Assembly (NCBI RefSeq): GCF_001425575.1
Contig: NZ_LMRD01000006.1
Span: 445,977-509,976, forward strand
Reading direction: 5' to 3'
From: Aurantimonas sp. Leaf443
GTDB lineage: Bacteria; Pseudomonadota; Alphaproteobacteria; Rhizobiales; Rhizobiaceae
Length of the DNA: 64,000 nucleotides
Part shown: piece after piece, positions 5,309 to 12,758 of the stretch
Layout: every line of letters begins with the position of its first letter
How positions within the stretch are numbered: position 1 is the first letter of the stretch
Position numbers and translations under genes: made by a program
Notes under the pieces: generated by a model
Databases searched by the model: none
What the model was told of the DNA's origin: nothing
What the model saw: only the letters and a program-made list of their open reading frames with translations

Positions 5309-7012
5309 TCACGGGGCGGCGCGGGCCGCACCGCTTCCGCCGCGCGCCGCCAGCATGCGCCCGTCGCCGAGATCGACGATGCGCCCGAAGCGAAGGAGGG
5401 TCTGAAGGGCGCGCGCCGCCCGCGGGCCGACCCTTCGGCCGGGCGCGAAGGCCTCGGCGATCTCGGCCGGCGTCATGGCACGGCCGGACCCGGCGAGGAG
5501 GCGCTCCACCGCGAGCGGCTGATCGATGACGTCCGCGGGAAATACGGGGCGCGGCGGCAGCGCCGGCGGCGGCGGTGGGACCATCGCCGGCGCCTCCTCG
5601 CGAAAGCCCGCGCCGCGCTCCAGAAGGGGGCGCTGATAGTCCGGCCGCAGCCAGCGCACGAGGCCCGCCGCCTCCTCGCGGGCGCGCGCGGCGTTGAGCG
5701 CGACGAGACGCTCCAGCACTGCCTCCTGGCCGAGCTCGGCCGGCCAGCCATAGGCCTGGAGCGTCGCCCGGTCGATCGCCTCGTGCAGTTCCTGGAGGAT
5801 GAGGACGAGGCCGCGACGGCGGATGTCGGCCTGTTTCGCCGAGAGGCCGGCGCCCTGACGCATCGCGTCGAGGACGTTGTAGAGTCCGGTCAGCGTGAGA
5901 TCGGGATTGTCGGCGAGGACGCGCCTGCGGGTTTCGTCCAGTTCCTCGGCCGTCGCCCGAAGCGTCTCGACCGTTCGCCCTTCGAGCGGCGGGAAGGGGA
6001 AAGGGTCGAAGATCGCGGGATCGACCTCCGTCCAGCGCACCCGGGCGGCCGCGAGGAGCTCGGCGATTTCCGCGGCCGGCAGGGCGAAGGCGCTCGCCTC
6101 GCGGAAGAGATTGCCGTTGAAATGGCGCAGATGGGCGCGGAATCCGGTGAAGAAGCGGTCCTCGCGCCGGGGCGCGTCCATCTTGCGCCAGAGTTCGGTG
6201 ACGGTCGGTGCGAAGGCCTCCGGCGTCTCCACGCAATCGGCGAGGAGGCGGGAGAAGCTGTCCTTGGGCAGGAGCCCGACATCCTCGGCGAACATCGTGA
6301 AGATGCAGCGCACCAGGAATTGCGCCACCTCCGCGGGCGGATGCTCGGCCTCCAGATGCCGGCTGACGACGGCCAGGCGCTCGGCGACGCCGCGCGTCAC
6401 GCGGGCGGCCTCGCGGGCGGGGTCGAGCGCGTTCGGGTCCGTCCAGACGAGGGCGAGGCGGCGCCGCACGCTTTCCTCGCGCAGCATGTCCAGCGTGATG
6501 CGGAAGCCGTTGCGGTCCGGGGACTGCCCGTAGCCGCGACCGGTGCCGGTGAAGTCGGCGTAGAGTTCGATGACGCGGCCGACATCCACGACGAGGAGGA
6601 AGGGCGGCGCGGCATGGGAGGGATCGAGCAGGAAGACGTAGCCCTCGGCCTGCCGGCGGGCGTTCTGCATCATCACGTCCCAGTTGCGCGTCGCGCGGCC
6701 CGCCCGCCGCGGCGGCGCCTCGCGTTCGGGCAAGGCCTTCTCCCGCCCGGGCAGGCGCGACTGCTTGGCTTCCAGAATGAAACAGTCGCGCTTGTAGAGA
6801 TCGATCCGGCGCGGCTGGGGCGCCCCCTCGCTCTCGCGCGGGCGCACGGCGCGCTCGAAGACGTAATCGTTGAACCGCGTGTCGGCGCCGGCCGGCTCCG
6901 GACGCGCCACGCCGATGACGTCGCACAGCTCGCTGAGGAACATCATGGTGTTCGCTCGCTCGGCGCCGCCCTCGCGGTCCGACCAGCGGGCGATGAATGC
7001 TTCGACCTGCAC
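5309..7012 (-). CDS. MmeI-like type IIL restriction protein lacking the methyltransferase/TRD core (567 aa)
   Basis: The N-terminal part matches MmeI-type fused restriction-modification enzymes: the IGVARPEP...FNDYVFERAV block, then a PD-(D/E)XK nuclease centre (D71, E81-A-K83 in DLYKRDCFILEAKQ) and the helical spacer (residues about 110-335). At about residue 335 the text jumps from EVDPAIF to DPFPFPPLEG, which in full-length relatives lie on either side of the roughly 500-residue methyltransferase and most of the target-recognition domain. The usual C-terminal helices (LTLTGLYNVLDAMR, LHEAIDRATLQAYGW, GLVRWLRP) and a winged-helix-like tail follow. No motif I (FxGxG) or NPPY motif is present. 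The start is GTG 7012 with GGGAGGAG upstream. It could be a degenerate in-frame deletion product or a nuclease-only variant. Confidence 0.75.
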   Translation of the reverse strand: MQVEAFIARWSDREGGAERANTMMFLSELCDVIGVARPEPAGADTRFNDYVFERAVRPRESEGAPQPRRIDLYKRDCFILEAKQSRLPGREKALPEREAPPRRAGRATRNWDVMMQNARRQAEGYVFLLDPSHAAPPFLLVVDVGRVIELYADFTGTGRGYGQSPDRNGFRITLDMLREESVRRRLALVWTDPNALDPAREAARVTRGVAERLAVVSRHLEAEHPPAEVAQFLVRCIFTMFAEDVGLLPKDSFSRLLADCVETPEAFAPTVTELWRKMDAPRREDRFFTGFRAHLRHFNGNLFREASAFALPAAEIAELLAAARVRWTEVDPAIFDPFPFPPLEGRTVETLRATAEELDETRRRVLADNPDLTLTGLYNVLDAMRQGAGLSAKQADIRRRGLVLILQELHEAIDRATLQAYGWPAELGQEAVLERLVALNAARAREEAAGLVRWLRPDYQRPLLERGAGFREEAPAMVPPPPPALPPRPVFPADVIDQPLAVERLLAGSGRAMTPAEIAEAFAPGRRVGPRAARALQTLLRFGRIVDLGDGRMLAARGGSGAARAAP

Positions 7013-7170
7013 CTGCGCCTTCTCCTCCCGCGATCAAGCCGGAGTGAGAAAAGCAACCCAGGACTGTAGTATCAAGAAAAATGCACGCTTAGGGTGAATG
7101 CCTTGATGCCGCATGTGTGCGGTGGTGGCACGCCCGCCGTCGTCCGAAGCGTCCGAGAACACGTTGCGGA

Positions 7171-7626
7171 ATGACGCAGATCGCGAAATTCGTGGCGCGA
7201 TGGGGGTCGAGCGCGGCGACCGTCGCGCCCCATCCGTTGATCGCCGGCGCAGCCAGGTCGATCGAAGGCGGCTTGTGGCTCGCCGATTATGACGATCCCG
7301 TCGAGACCACTTGCGATGCGCCGAGAACGCCGGGCGAACTGCGGGCCGCCGTGCTCACCGAACGCGGGCGAGCGGGCACGGAAATGCATCCTATCGTGGA
7401 ACGCGCGTCGGCGTATGCGGACGGTTTCCCGAAGGATAAGGTCGAGAACTGGGACAATCTCGTGCGCATTCCGACGTATCGACACCCTGAGGTGAGCGGC
7501 TGGTACATGGTCAGACGAGAGCGGTTTGGCGGGCTCTCTGCCCGGCAATATCTCCGCGGCAAGACCTGGGAAGAACGGCATGCCGTCGGGCTGGAAGCGT
7601 TAAAAGAGTTTGAGGTTCTCAGATGA
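7171..7626 (+). CDS. Candidate HNH-like toxin domain protein (151 aa)
   Basis: The C-terminal half resembles a domain that, as I recall, ends many polymorphic-toxin proteins: M-H-P-I-V-E (H73-E77), NLVRIP (N96) and H105, then GWY, GGLSARQYLRGK and WEERHAVGLEALKEFEVL. The H...N...H order fits a beta-beta-alpha (HNH/AHH-like) nuclease, but the usual HH dyad is HP here, so activity is uncertain. The short, weakly conserved N-terminus suggests an orphan toxin cassette without its delivery domains. ATG 7171 is the chosen start; an in-frame GTG at 7117 adds a very basic stretch. It overlaps the downstream DUF2019 gene by 4 bases (ATGA), implying co-translation with a partner. Confidence 0.55.
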   Translation: MTQIAKFVARWGSSAATVAPHPLIAGAARSIEGGLWLADYDDPVETTCDAPRTPGELRAAVLTERGRAGTEMHPIVERASAYADGFPKDKVENWDNLVRIPTYRHPEVSGWYMVRRERFGGLSARQYLRGKTWEERHAVGLEALKEFEVLR

Positions 7627-8000
7627 AGAGCAGGAAATCTATTGCCGAGATGACGGACGACGAGATCCGCCTCCGCTTCATCGAGATCGGCATCGCCCAG
7701 TTCGACGTAGCTTGCGAGCCGGAAGATGCAGATCAGTTCAATCGTTTCTACGCAGAAAACGAGAAGCTCGAGGAGAAATTGCGGTCGAGGCCAGGCGATA
7801 GGCGGCCCGTGCTCTTCGATCCGATGAAGCATCCGAACATGCAACTGCGGTTCAATGCCGCGACGGCCCTGTTCGCGCTCTACCCGAAAGAGGCACGCGA
7901 AGCGCTTCTCGAGATTCACGAGAAGGCCGACGGACCGATCGCCACCGGTGCGATCGCGCATCTCGACTGGATCGATCAGGGCAAGTTCACGCCGACGTGA
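7623..8000 (+). CDS. DUF2019 domain protein, candidate immunity partner (125 aa)
   Basis: This is a soluble helical protein with the DUF2019 pattern: MTDDEIRLRFIEIGIAQ at the N-terminus, a FNRFYAENEKLEEKL helix, then HPNMQLRFNAATALFALYPKEAREALLEI, which looks like one HEAT-like repeat. The start ATG 7623 overlaps the stop of the preceding gene, so the two are translationally coupled. DUF2019 proteins are often found near toxin cassettes and are plausible immunity proteins, which is an inference from context. The gene ends 16 bases before the convergent uvrD stop. Confidence 0.75.
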   Translation: MKSRKSIAEMTDDEIRLRFIEIGIAQFDVACEPEDADQFNRFYAENEKLEEKLRSRPGDRRPVLFDPMKHPNMQLRFNAATALFALYPKEAREALLEIHEKADGPIATGAIAHLDWIDQGKFTPT

Positions 8001-8016: not shown

Positions 8017-10680
8017 TCAACCCGCCTGGATGAAGCTTTCCAGCACGCGCTTCTGGCCGGCCTTGTCGAAATCGACGGTGAGCTTGTTGCCCTCGACCAC
8101 CGAGACGGTGCCGGGTCCGAACTTCTGGTGGAAGACCCGGTCGCCGACGGCAAAGAGGCTGTCCTGCGCGGTCACGGACTTGGCGACGAGTTCGCCCTCG
8201 ATCTCGCGCGGGCCGGAGCGCTTGGCGGAGGAGTAGAGGCCGGCGCCGCGCGAGGGCGGCTGATTGGAGCCGCGGCTTTGGGCGGCGGGCGTGAAGGCGG
8301 GGTTCGACGGGGACGGACCGCTTTCGGCGAAGCCGCCGAGACCGGCCTCGCGGGCATAGCGGTCGGCCTTGGCCTTCACGCCGTTCTCGCCATAGGCGAT
8401 CTCGCGGGTGCGCCCGCCCGACCAGCCGTCGCCGCCGACGCCGCCCGAGCGCGGGGCCGCCTCGCCGCGCGCGGCGGCCTGGGCGCGCTTCCAGCCGGGG
8501 GTGGAATAGGCGCCGGCGCCGAAGGCGGCCTGGCCGTCCCAGCGGCTGGCGCCGTAGCCGCCGAAGCCCGACGCGCCGTAGCCGCCATAGGAGCTCGTCG
8601 GCTCCTTCACGTCGACATGGGCCTCGGGCAGCTCGTCCAGGAAGCGCGAGGGGATGGTGGACTGCCACAATCCGTGGATGCGCCGGTTGGAGACGAACCA
8701 GAGCTTCACACGCTTCTTGCCGCGCGTGATCCCGACATAGGCGAGACGGCGCTCCTCCTCCAGTCCCGAACGGCCGCCCTCGTCGAGCGAGCGCTGGTGC
8801 GGGAAGAGGCCTTCCTCCCAACCCGGCAGGAACACGGTCTCGAATTCGAGGCCCTTGGCCGAATGCAGGGTCATGATGGAGACGGCGTCGAGATCGGCGT
8901 TCTGTTCGGCATCCATCACGAGCGCGATATGCTCGAGGAAGGAGGGCAGGCTCTCGTAGTCCTCCATGGAGCGGATGAGCTCCTTGAGATTGTCGAGCCG
9001 GCCCGGGGCTTCGGCCGAACGGTCGTTCTGCCACATCTCGGTGTAGCCGCTCTCTTCCAGGATCGTCTCGGCGAGCTCGGTATGGCTCGTCGCCTCGACC
9101 ATGCCGGCCCAGCGGCGGAAATTGGCGACGACGGTGCGCAGCGTCGCGCGGGGCTTGGGTTTCAGCTCTTCGGTCTCGACGAGTTCGCCGGCCGCCGCGA
9201 TCATCGGAATCTGGCGGTCGCGGGCATAGTCGTGGATCTGGCGGATCGTGGCGTCGCCGAGACCGCGTTTCGGAACGTTGACGATGCGCTCGAAGGCGAG
9301 GTCGTCGGCCGGCTGCACGGTGGCGCGGAAATAGGCCAGCGCGTCGCGGATCTCCTGGCGCTCGTAGAAGCGCGGGCCGCCGATGACGCGGTAGTTGAGG
9401 CCCATCGTGACGAAGCGGTCCTCGAACTCGCGCATCTGGAACGAGGCGCGCACGAGGATCGCCATGTCGTTGAGCCTGTGGGAATGCTTGCGCTGCAGGC
9501 GCTCGATCTCCTCGCCGACGGCGCGCGCCTCCTCCTCCGAATCCCAGGCGGCGTAGACCTCCACCTTCTCGTGCTCGGGATCGGCCTGATCGGTGAAGAG
9601 CGTCTTGCCGAGCCGGTCCTCGTTATGGGCGATGAGATGGGAGGCCGCGCCGAGAATATGGGCGGTGGAGCGGTAGTTGCGCTCCAGCCGGATCACGGTG
9701 GCGCCCGGAAAGTCCTTCTCGAAGCGCAGGATATTGTCGACCTCCGCGCCGCGCCAGCCGTAGATCGACTGGTCGTCGTCGCCGACGCAGCAGAGATTGA
9801 CGCGTGTCCCGCTCGCGCCGTCGCCGCCGTGCGGCTCGCTCCGCGGGGGCGCGGCATCGGCCGCGACGGCCGGTCGGCCTGCGGATCGCTGCGCCAGCAG
9901 ACGCAGCCACATATACTGGGCGACGTTCGTGTCCTGGTACTCGTCGACGAGGATGTAGCGGAAGCGGCGATGATATTCGGCGAGGACGTCCGGATGCGTG
10001 CGCAGGATCTCGATCGGATGCATGAGCAGATCGCCGAAGTCGCAGGCGTTCAGCGCCAGGAGCCGCTCCTGATAGGCGGCGTAGAGCTTGCGGCCGCGCC
10101 CGTCGCCGAAGGCGCGGGCATCGCCCTCGGGAATGGCCTTCGGCCCCAGCGCCTTGTTCTTCCAGCCGTCGATCATCTGGGCGAGCGCGCGCGCCGTCCA
10201 GCGCTTGTCGTCGAGGCCCTCGGCCTGGATGATCTGCTTGAGAAGGCGGACCTGGTCGTCCGTGTCGAGGATGGTGAAGGAGGATTTCAGGCCCGCGAGC
10301 TCGGCATGCCGGCGCAGCATCTTCACCCCGATCGAGTGGAACGTGCCGAGCCAGGGCATGCCCTCCACCTCGCCGCCGCACAGGAGGCCGATGCGCGTCT
10401 TCATCTCGCGCGCGGCCTTGTTGGTGAAGGTGACGGCGAGGATCTGCGAGGGAAAGGCGAGGCCCCGGCCGAGAATATGGGCGATGCGCGTCGTCAGCAC
10501 CCGCGTCTTGCCGGTGCCGGCGCCGGCAAGGACGAGGACCGGGCCTTCCGTCGTCTCCACCGCCGCGCGCTGCTCGGGATTGAGGCCGGCGAGAAGGTCG
10601 GGCGCGCGCGTGCCCCGGGCCGCCATGGCGCGGGCGGCGATGCCGGAGGGGCGGGGGGAGAGGTCGGAGGAGTCGCTCAT
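8017..10680 (-). CDS. uvrD: UvrD/PcrA-type ATP-dependent DNA helicase (887 aa)
   Basis: This superfamily 1A 3'-5' helicase acts in nucleotide excision and mismatch repair and clears replication conflicts. Motifs in order are: Q-motif LNPEQRAAV, Walker A AGAGTGKT (residues 52-59), TFTNKAA (Ia), LVDEYQDTN (II), CVGDDDQSIYGWRGA (III), YRS (IV), IMTLHSAKGLEFE (V) and VGITRGKKR (VI). The C-terminus (DRVFHQKFGPGTVSVVEGNKL...) is the PcrA/UvrD Tudor-like RNA polymerase-interaction domain after a glycine-rich linker. About 25 low-complexity residues are inserted just before motif III; similar linkers of varying length occur in alphaproteobacterial homologues. It is monocistronic. Confidence 0.93.
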   Translation of the reverse strand: MSDSSDLSPRPSGIAARAMAARGTRAPDLLAGLNPEQRAAVETTEGPVLVLAGAGTGKTRVLTTRIAHILGRGLAFPSQILAVTFTNKAAREMKTRIGLLCGGEVEGMPWLGTFHSIGVKMLRRHAELAGLKSSFTILDTDDQVRLLKQIIQAEGLDDKRWTARALAQMIDGWKNKALGPKAIPEGDARAFGDGRGRKLYAAYQERLLALNACDFGDLLMHPIEILRTHPDVLAEYHRRFRYILVDEYQDTNVAQYMWLRLLAQRSAGRPAVAADAAPPRSEPHGGDGASGTRVNLCCVGDDDQSIYGWRGAEVDNILRFEKDFPGATVIRLERNYRSTAHILGAASHLIAHNEDRLGKTLFTDQADPEHEKVEVYAAWDSEEEARAVGEEIERLQRKHSHRLNDMAILVRASFQMREFEDRFVTMGLNYRVIGGPRFYERQEIRDALAYFRATVQPADDLAFERIVNVPKRGLGDATIRQIHDYARDRQIPMIAAAGELVETEELKPKPRATLRTVVANFRRWAGMVEATSHTELAETILEESGYTEMWQNDRSAEAPGRLDNLKELIRSMEDYESLPSFLEHIALVMDAEQNADLDAVSIMTLHSAKGLEFETVFLPGWEEGLFPHQRSLDEGGRSGLEEERRLAYVGITRGKKRVKLWFVSNRRIHGLWQSTIPSRFLDELPEAHVDVKEPTSSYGGYGASGFGGYGASRWDGQAAFGAGAYSTPGWKRAQAAARGEAAPRSGGVGGDGWSGGRTREIAYGENGVKAKADRYAREAGLGGFAESGPSPSNPAFTPAAQSRGSNQPPSRGAGLYSSAKRSGPREIEGELVAKSVTAQDSLFAVGDRVFHQKFGPGTVSVVEGNKLTVDFDKAGQKRVLESFIQAG

Positions 10681-10764
10681 CGCACCCTATTTAGACCATC
10701 GCGCCCAGAACACTAGACGAACATCGCGGCGGGGCGCCGCAGTCGGGCACGCACGTGCGCCGCG

Positions 10765-11265
10765 TCAGGGCGCCCGCTTCGGCCGCATGGCGATGGCCCG
10801 CCCCGCATCCTCGGGGCGCGGCAGGTGGGCGTGTTCCGCCGCGACGGCGGCGAGGCGCCCGGCGATGTCGGGCGGGAAGGGCGCGACCTTCGGGCCGGAG
10901 AGATCGACGGAGAGGATGAGCCCTTCCAGCGTCGCCGCGCACCAGCCCTCGGCGTGGAAGAGGCGCTGGAAGACATGGATGCGCCGCTCGTCGAAGGCGA
11001 TGATCTGGGAGGCGACGCGCACGATGGAGCCCGGCTTCACCTCGCGTCTGTAGACGACATGCGATTCGGCGGCGAAGGTCGTGGCCGAGCTCTCGGCGGC
11101 GCGATGCGGGCCGATGCCGAAGCGCTCGAAGAGTTCGTCCACGCCCCGGTCGAAGAGGACGTGGTAATAGGCGAGGTTCAGGTGCCCGTTATGGTCGATC
11201 CATTGCGGCTCGATCTCCATCGGGGCGCTGACGAAACCCGAGGTCTCGATCGTGGGCTCGTCCAT
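10765..11265 (-). CDS. Thioesterase family protein, hot-dog fold (166 aa)
   Basis: This is a predicted acyl-CoA thioesterase of the 4HBT/hot-dog class, with the segment IEPQWIDHNGHLNLAYYHVLFDRGVDEL containing the Asp of the 4-hydroxybenzoyl-CoA thioesterase type active site, then a five-strand pattern (SHVVYRREVKPGSIVRVASQIIAFDERRIHVFQRLF). Three in-frame ATGs lie together at 11274, 11271 and 11265. The ribosome site GGCGAGG abuts the first and is 9 bases from the third, so 11265 is preferred. The substrate is unknown. It is divergent from the flavoprotein gene at 11352. Confidence 0.8.
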   Translation of the reverse strand: MDEPTIETSGFVSAPMEIEPQWIDHNGHLNLAYYHVLFDRGVDELFERFGIGPHRAAESSATTFAAESHVVYRREVKPGSIVRVASQIIAFDERRIHVFQRLFHAEGWCAATLEGLILSVDLSGPKVAPFPPDIAGRLAAVAAEHAHLPRPEDAGRAIAMRPKRAP

Positions 11266-11351
11266 CGGCATCATCCTCGCCTGTCGCGCCGGGATCGGAT
11301 ACGGGTTTTGAGAAGGGCGTCAACGCCCGATCGGCGGACGGGAGAACGACG

Positions 11352-12758
11352 ATGACGCTGGCCGACATCATGACGGAGCGCCGCGAGACGCGGGCGGGCA
11401 TTCCCGCCGCTCTCGAGGCGCTGGCGCCGCTCTTCGGCGAAAGGCTGGTGCGCGGCGAGGACGTGCGCCGCGCGCACGCCCATTCCACCACCTACATTCC
11501 CAACCAGATGCCGGATGCGGTCGTCTTCGTGCGCAGCGAGGCGGAGGTGCAGGCGGCGGTGCGGATCTGCGCCGAGCATCGCTGCCCGATCGTCGCATTC
11601 GGCACCGGCTCCTCGCTGGAGGGCCACGTCAACGCGCCGCTCGGCGGCATCTCGCTCGACCTGTCGCAGATGGACGCGATCCTGGCCGTCAACGCGCAGG
11701 ATCTCGACTGCCGCGTGCAGCCGGGCGTGACGCGCGAGGCGCTGAACGCCCATCTGCGCGACACCGGCCTGTTCTTCCCCATCGATCCCGGCGCCAACGC
11801 CTCGCTCGGCGGCATGGCGGCGACGCGCGCCTCGGGCACCAACGCGGTGCGCTACGGCACGATGCGCGAGAACGTCATCTCGCTCTGCGCGGTGATGGCC
11901 GACGGACGGCTGGTGCGCACGGCGCGGCGCGCGCGCAAGAGCGCGGCCGGCTACGACCTGACGCGGCTTCTCGTCGGCTCCGAAGGCACGCTCGGCATCA
12001 TCACGGAACTGACGCTGAAGCTCTACGGGATCCCCGAGGCCGTCGTCTCGGGCGTCTGCCCGTTCCCGGACGTGAAGAGCGCCTGCGACACGGTGATCGA
12101 GACGATCCAGACCGGCATTCCCGTCGCGCGCATCGAGCTTCTCGACACGCTCGCCGTGCAGGCCGCGCGCGCCCATTCGGGCCTCGACCTTCCGGTCTCG
12201 CCCTGCCTCTTCGTGGAGTTCCACGGCTCGCCCGCCTCGGTCGCCGAACAGGCGGCGGGCTTCGCCGAGATCGCGGCCGGCAATGGCGGCGGCGCTTTGG
12301 AAAGCGCCTCGCTCGCCGAGGAACGCGCGCGCCTGTGGAAGGCGCGGCACAATTTCTACTGGGCCGCGCTCGCCCTGCGGCCCGGCGCGGCGGGCATCGC
12401 CACCGACGTCTGCGTGCCCGTGTCGCGGCTGGCCGAATGCATCGAGGAGACGCGGCTCGACATCGAGGCGGCCGGCTTCGTCGCCCCGATCGTCGGCCAT
12501 GTCGGCGACGGCAACTTCCACGTGACGCTACTCATCGACACCGCCAACGCGGCCGAGATCGATGCGGCCGAGGCCTTCGGCGCGCGGCTGGCGGCCCGGG
12601 CGCTCGACATGGACGGCACCTGCACGGGCGAGCACGGGATCGGGCAGGGCAAGCGGGCGTATCTCACCGACGAGATGGGCGAGGGCGTCGCGGTGATGCG
12701 GGCGATCAAGCAGGCGCTCGACCCGCTCGCCATCCTCAATCCCGGCAAGATCTTCTGA
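11352..12758 (+). CDS. FAD-linked oxidase, D-lactate dehydrogenase (cytochrome)/GlcD type (468 aa)
   Basis: This flavoprotein of the VAO/PCMH fold oxidises D-2-hydroxy acids (D-lactate or glycolate) and passes electrons to cytochrome c or quinone. The N-terminal FAD-binding domain includes PDAVVFVRSEAEVQAAV, the pyrophosphate loop VAFGTGSSLEGHVNAP and DPGANASLGGMAATRASGTNAVRYGT. The C-terminal FAD-oxidase domain includes PIVGHVGDGNFHV (metal/substrate His), CTGEHGIGQGK and LDPLAILNPGKIF. It has no GlcE or GlcF neighbours, so a stand-alone D-lactate dehydrogenase is more likely than a glycolate oxidase subunit. ATG 11352 follows GGAGAACG. Confidence 0.87.
   Translation: MTLADIMTERRETRAGIPAALEALAPLFGERLVRGEDVRRAHAHSTTYIPNQMPDAVVFVRSEAEVQAAVRICAEHRCPIVAFGTGSSLEGHVNAPLGGISLDLSQMDAILAVNAQDLDCRVQPGVTREALNAHLRDTGLFFPIDPGANASLGGMAATRASGTNAVRYGTMRENVISLCAVMADGRLVRTARRARKSAAGYDLTRLLVGSEGTLGIITELTLKLYGIPEAVVSGVCPFPDVKSACDTVIETIQTGIPVARIELLDTLAVQAARAHSGLDLPVSPCLFVEFHGSPASVAEQAAGFAEIAAGNGGGALESASLAEERARLWKARHNFYWAALALRPGAAGIATDVCVPVSRLAECIEETRLDIEAAGFVAPIVGHVGDGNFHVTLLIDTANAAEIDAAEAFGARLAARALDMDGTCTGEHGIGQGKRAYLTDEMGEGVAVMRAIKQALDPLAILNPGKIF

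Follow-up and report, generated by a model that had tools for sequence, protein, structure and literature searches.

In this study, we report the analysis of an MmeI-like (Type IIL/IIG) restriction-modification (RM) gene located at 5309..7012 on the minus strand of the window (the whole 64,000-nucleotide stretch of Aurantimonas sp. Leaf443 DNA that was analysed), and show that its methyltransferase (MTase) and target recognition domain (TRD) are missing at a point marked by a 5-nt microhomology. The gene is highly likely to be a non-functional remnant of a Type IIL/IIG enzyme, left by a recent, private, in-frame microhomology deletion, and its product very probably can neither restrict nor methylate DNA.

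The open reading frame encodes 567 aa, with a GTG start codon at 7012 and the stop codon at 5309-5311. The sequence immediately 5' of the start codon, GGGAGGAG, is ribosome-binding-site-like (GGGAGGAGAAGG at 7013..7030, minus strand). Pfam searches identified the PD-(D/E)XK nuclease domain MmeI_N (PF20464, E 6e-20) at residues 2-222 (6347..7009, minus strand) and the helical spacer MmeI_hel (PF20465, E 5e-18) at residues 228-303 (6104..6331, minus strand), the latter also modelled confidently by AlphaFold2; no MTase or TRD family was found in the protein by this search (PF20473 and PF20466 absent). The catalytic residues D71, E81 and K83, which correspond to D70, E80 and K82 of MmeI, were invariant across 37 aligned proteins; cutting by MmeI requires each of the three (PMC4833311). 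The region 5312..6007 (minus strand) encodes the post-TRD C-terminal helical bundle and a winged-helix-like end (~residues 498-555), as indicated by relatives, the AlphaFold2 model and fold matches. The nuclease centre, spacer and C-terminal helices of MmeI type named in the original prediction were thus borne out by Pfam, by the D71/E81/K83 residues and by the C-termini of the relatives. The PADLOC model REase_MTase_IIG (PDLC03627, 1136 positions) matched the protein in two stretches (E 1.4e-174), the better of which aligned residues 1-335 with model positions 2-333, and ~560-580 central residues of the model are missing from the protein. Membership in the MmeI-like Type IIL/IIG group is indicated by the nuclease with its D...ExK motif and by the helical spacer, with the MTase and TRD absent. 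Plasmid genes of the PDLC03627 type are annotated as 'class I SAM-dependent DNA methyltransferase' or 'DNA methyltransferase'.

The only sequence match in the PDB was the Type IIL RM enzyme MmeI (5HR4), which has in common with the window protein the PD-(D/E)XK N-terminus with its D-X9-E-X-K motif, the helical spacer and the C-terminal helical part. Unlike MmeI, the window protein has neither MTase nor TRD, and it carries a winged-helix-like C-terminal domain, a region common to the full-length relatives of its branch. This domain (residues 498-555; window 5346-5521, minus strand) was matched by no Pfam MmeI model.

The missing segment was defined by alignment with L033, a full-length relative of 1147 aa in which Pfam finds MmeI_N, MmeI_hel, MmeI_Mtase (PF20473, E 3e-31) and MmeI_TRD (PF20466, E 2e-10). 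Residues 1-335 of the window protein aligned with 1-341 of L033 and residues 334-555 with 918-1143, and ~576 aa of L033 are absent. The alignment and the Pfam results agree with the earlier reading that the protein has no methyltransferase core, and the TRD is absent too. That reading had also placed the jump at about residue 335, near base 6006, with about 500 residues missing and the frame kept. Comparison with 12 relatives located the junction at the Ile-Phe codons of residues 334-335 (6004..6013, minus strand), at base ~6010 and exact to within a few bases; the frame is indeed open over all 567 aa, and the size given for the loss was slightly low.

In all intact relatives with both ends measurable, ~560-600 aa (~1.67-1.95 kb, with 2.6 kb in one) are present at the junction point, and the window sequence has nothing between the two flanking sites where relatives carry ~1.7 kb. 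The left site reads ATC TTCGGC in most relatives and the right site TGC TTCGAC, while the window gene reads ATC TTCGAC. The 5 nt common to both flanking sites, CTTCG, form a microhomology at the join; the left copy lies in the conserved 'AIFGTL' codons and the right copy in the 'CFDPFPFP' codons. This microhomology between conserved flanking sites is the trace expected from a simple deletion. In the six relatives with both sites located, the spacing between them was 1683-1734 nt and always a multiple of three, and the deletion coincides exactly with domain borders. Full-length members from the same taxonomic family reach 70% identity to the N part of the window protein and 56% identity to its C part.

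We propose that the ancestor was a single-chain MmeI-like RM enzyme of ~1,140 aa, which would have carried, in order, the nuclease, the spacer, a gamma-class N6-adenine MTase, the TRD, the C-terminal bundle and the winged helix. One ~1.7 kb deletion between the two CTTCG repeats would have removed exactly the MTase and TRD, and by luck (~1 in 3) would have done so in frame. The resulting product would be translatable, and would lack an AdoMet site, target recognition and any MmeI-like way onto DNA, so that it should neither methylate nor restrict. In MmeI, DNA is gripped between the TRD and the MTase, efficient cutting takes two recognition sites, and the nuclease domain is held by a flexible tether only (PMC4833311). 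An inert product, one of the two outcomes originally suggested, is supported by the loss of the recognition and AdoMet-binding parts, which are not supplied elsewhere, and by the microhomology scar.

The search for further proteins with the short architecture used the whole protein against same-family genomes, the named genome collection, viral contigs, plasmids and phages, and the junction-spanning residues 228-440 against genomes of the order and class. The ~1,180 genomes searched (396 from the family, 397 from the order and 385 from the class) and the named genome collection yielded no further protein built in this way. Matches were present in 83 of the 396 same-family genomes, the better-scoring ones being mostly full-length, with N and C matches ~1.7 kb apart, and across the 397 order and 385 class genomes the junction query was matched over its full length in the window's own genome only. 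A few hits of the junction query that overran residue 335, among them those in G572 (query 2-170) and G546 (query 1-144), proved to be loose alignments inside full-length frames of 1,086-1,199 aa and were rejected. Among plasmids, 59 records matched, none of which reached 80% query coverage or gave a second example; the viral contigs held one relative, by its N part only, and likewise no second example; phages gave no match to the 567-aa protein.

Damaged copies of the gene, with breakpoints elsewhere, were found in five other same-family genomes. In L033 numbering, the G034 copy has lost 246-801 and the G202 copy 146-633, both with a changed frame; the G165 copy has a deletion and several frame changes, the G341 copy retains both ends only, with ~3.5 kb of unmatched sequence between them, and the G258 copy consists of the first 46 residues only. 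The broken same-family copies L111, L112, L113, L118 and L119 are of the same gene type and, like the window gene, have an internal deletion; their breakpoints differ, L111-L113 have frame changes, and only the window copy remains in frame. In addition, full-length-type copies whose frames end early occur in Aurantimonas sp. VKM B-3413, the closest named relative, Aureimonas psammosilenae, Mesorhizobium sp. B2-7-2 and Alpha proteobacterium L41A (L031, L037, L038 and L045; 957, 989, 535 and 787 aa); these early ends are frameshifts or sequencing errors. The differing breakpoints together with the early-ending frames indicate that this gene type is lost often and by independent events, and a single in-frame deletion among several losses is unremarkable.

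Several features could be held against the remnant reading, namely the intact frame, the good ribosome-binding site, the kept conserved positions, the breakpoints at domain borders and the confident AlphaFold2 fold. With a young deletion, none of these requires that selection has continued, and they are compatible with selection too. Of the positions with at least 90% conservation among the other proteins, 91 of 93 are retained in the N part of the window protein and 46 of 48 in its C part, much as in intact relatives of similar divergence; conserved residues kept on both sides of the junction fit a recent event, and residual selection would also be compatible with them. Third-position GC is 0.91 in the N part and 0.87 in the C part (0.91-0.93 in neighbouring genes). 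The chance that a random sequence of the same composition stays open for 567 codons is ~1.5e-4, which argues that selection acted on this gene until recently. In both trees the branch of the window protein is long (0.41 for N and 0.87 for C), and in the C tree its root-to-tip distance is the longest among 36 proteins. The conserved-site and tree tests for relaxed selection point neither way, since C/N branch ratios of ~1.6-2.8 are seen in relatives too and the conserved sites hold. Saturation of dS against the available relatives is expected, because protein identity is 65-70%.

The AlphaFold2 model, built from a 37-row alignment, had a mean pLDDT of 83.6 and a pTM of 0.57. Confidence was high for the nuclease and spacer and low at the junction (residues 336-338) and at 455-484; the end, ~498-555, was predicted to be compact, with an H-H-H-E-E order. 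The retained parts can probably fold, and the pTM is too modest to fix how they are placed relative to one another. A fold search of the PDB placed MmeI 5HR4 on top (E 0.007), followed by weak matches, mostly to winged-helix folds, with E above 0.2.

A rival reading is a nuclease-only derivative, in which the deletion made a stand-alone PD-(D/E)XK nuclease with spacer and winged helix that is kept by selection and works together with a second protein that binds DNA, or attacks DNA that is modified or damaged. In keeping with this, the reading frame and start signals are preserved, the catalytic triad and the conserved residues flanking the junction are in place, and a winged-helix-like C-terminal domain remains. 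It is nevertheless a very unlikely explanation: the searched genomes, plasmids, phages and viral contigs gave no second example, the genome offers no cognate MTase for protection (two other N6_N4-type MTase genes only), and MmeI-type cutting relies on site binding via the MTase/TRD (PMC4833311). It is likewise very unlikely that the protein works on its own as a nuclease with a winged-helix tail in a new role, for example as the partner of a DNA-binding protein, which would make it an MmeI-type nuclease released from its methyltransferase. The different role raised as the other outcome in the original prediction, and with it a conserved nuclease-only family, found no support, as the short architecture did not recur in the other genomes searched.

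The remaining alternatives concern the whereabouts of the missing segment. The genome of the window is 3.9 Mb in 13 contigs and 99.9% complete, and no contig was matched by MTase/TRD core queries from L031 and L033, although the same L033 core query recovered full-length genes in G026 (E 1e-246) and G296 (E 9e-283). The separate methyltransferase for which a genome search had been suggested was thus not recovered by these cores. N6_Mtase (PF02384) had no match in the genome either, and neither of its two other N6_N4-type MTase genes was found by the core queries. One gene, with a strong PF01555 match, appears to be CcrM. The other is a 726-aa open frame (G000:C7:694844-695911, L130) in which PF01555 matches twice, more weakly; it may be a Type III-like Mod or else an orphan methyltransferase.

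An assembly or sequencing artefact, in which a truly full-length gene lost ~1.7 kb at a short repeat, would be in keeping with the window protein being the sole one with such a join; it is highly improbable, given that the gene lies inside a large contig of this near-complete genome, that none of the contigs carries the missing segment and that a 5-nt repeat should be far too short to collapse in a normal assembly. Split RM systems exist in general, and a relocated MTase/TRD core acting in trans with the 567-aa protein is extremely unlikely here, being contradicted by the core and PF02384 searches unless the partner is on an unassembled replicon.

The gene adjoins uvrD/pcrA in the window. In Jiella sonneratiae (L087, 5371-8787 plus strand and 9298-12114 minus strand), a full-length MmeI-like gene also adjoins uvrD/pcrA, in the opposite relative orientation, for which an inversion or an integration hot spot is possible. 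With the orientation reversed, this shared neighbour does not establish vertical descent at the locus. At window 7117-8000 (plus strand) lies a 169-aa ORF ending in WDNLVRIPTYRHPEVSGWYM...FGGLSARQYLRGKTWEER, with no Pfam or NCBIfam match, whose end we take to resemble the C-terminal tails of polymorphic bacterial toxins. It is overlapped by a 125-aa DUF2019 ORF (PF09450), which could be the immunity protein of this putative toxin.

The window gene is a known type of gene in altered form and not a new functional system. Retained activity, if true, would matter more, and nothing found points that way. The PADLOC Type IIG model still matches strongly, though the gene very probably no longer restricts. 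The gene thus provides a clean example of the loss of a single-chain RM gene, in which one microhomology deletion takes protection and recognition together; since enzymes of this class depend on the recognition half for cutting, no dangerous free nuclease is expected to be left behind.
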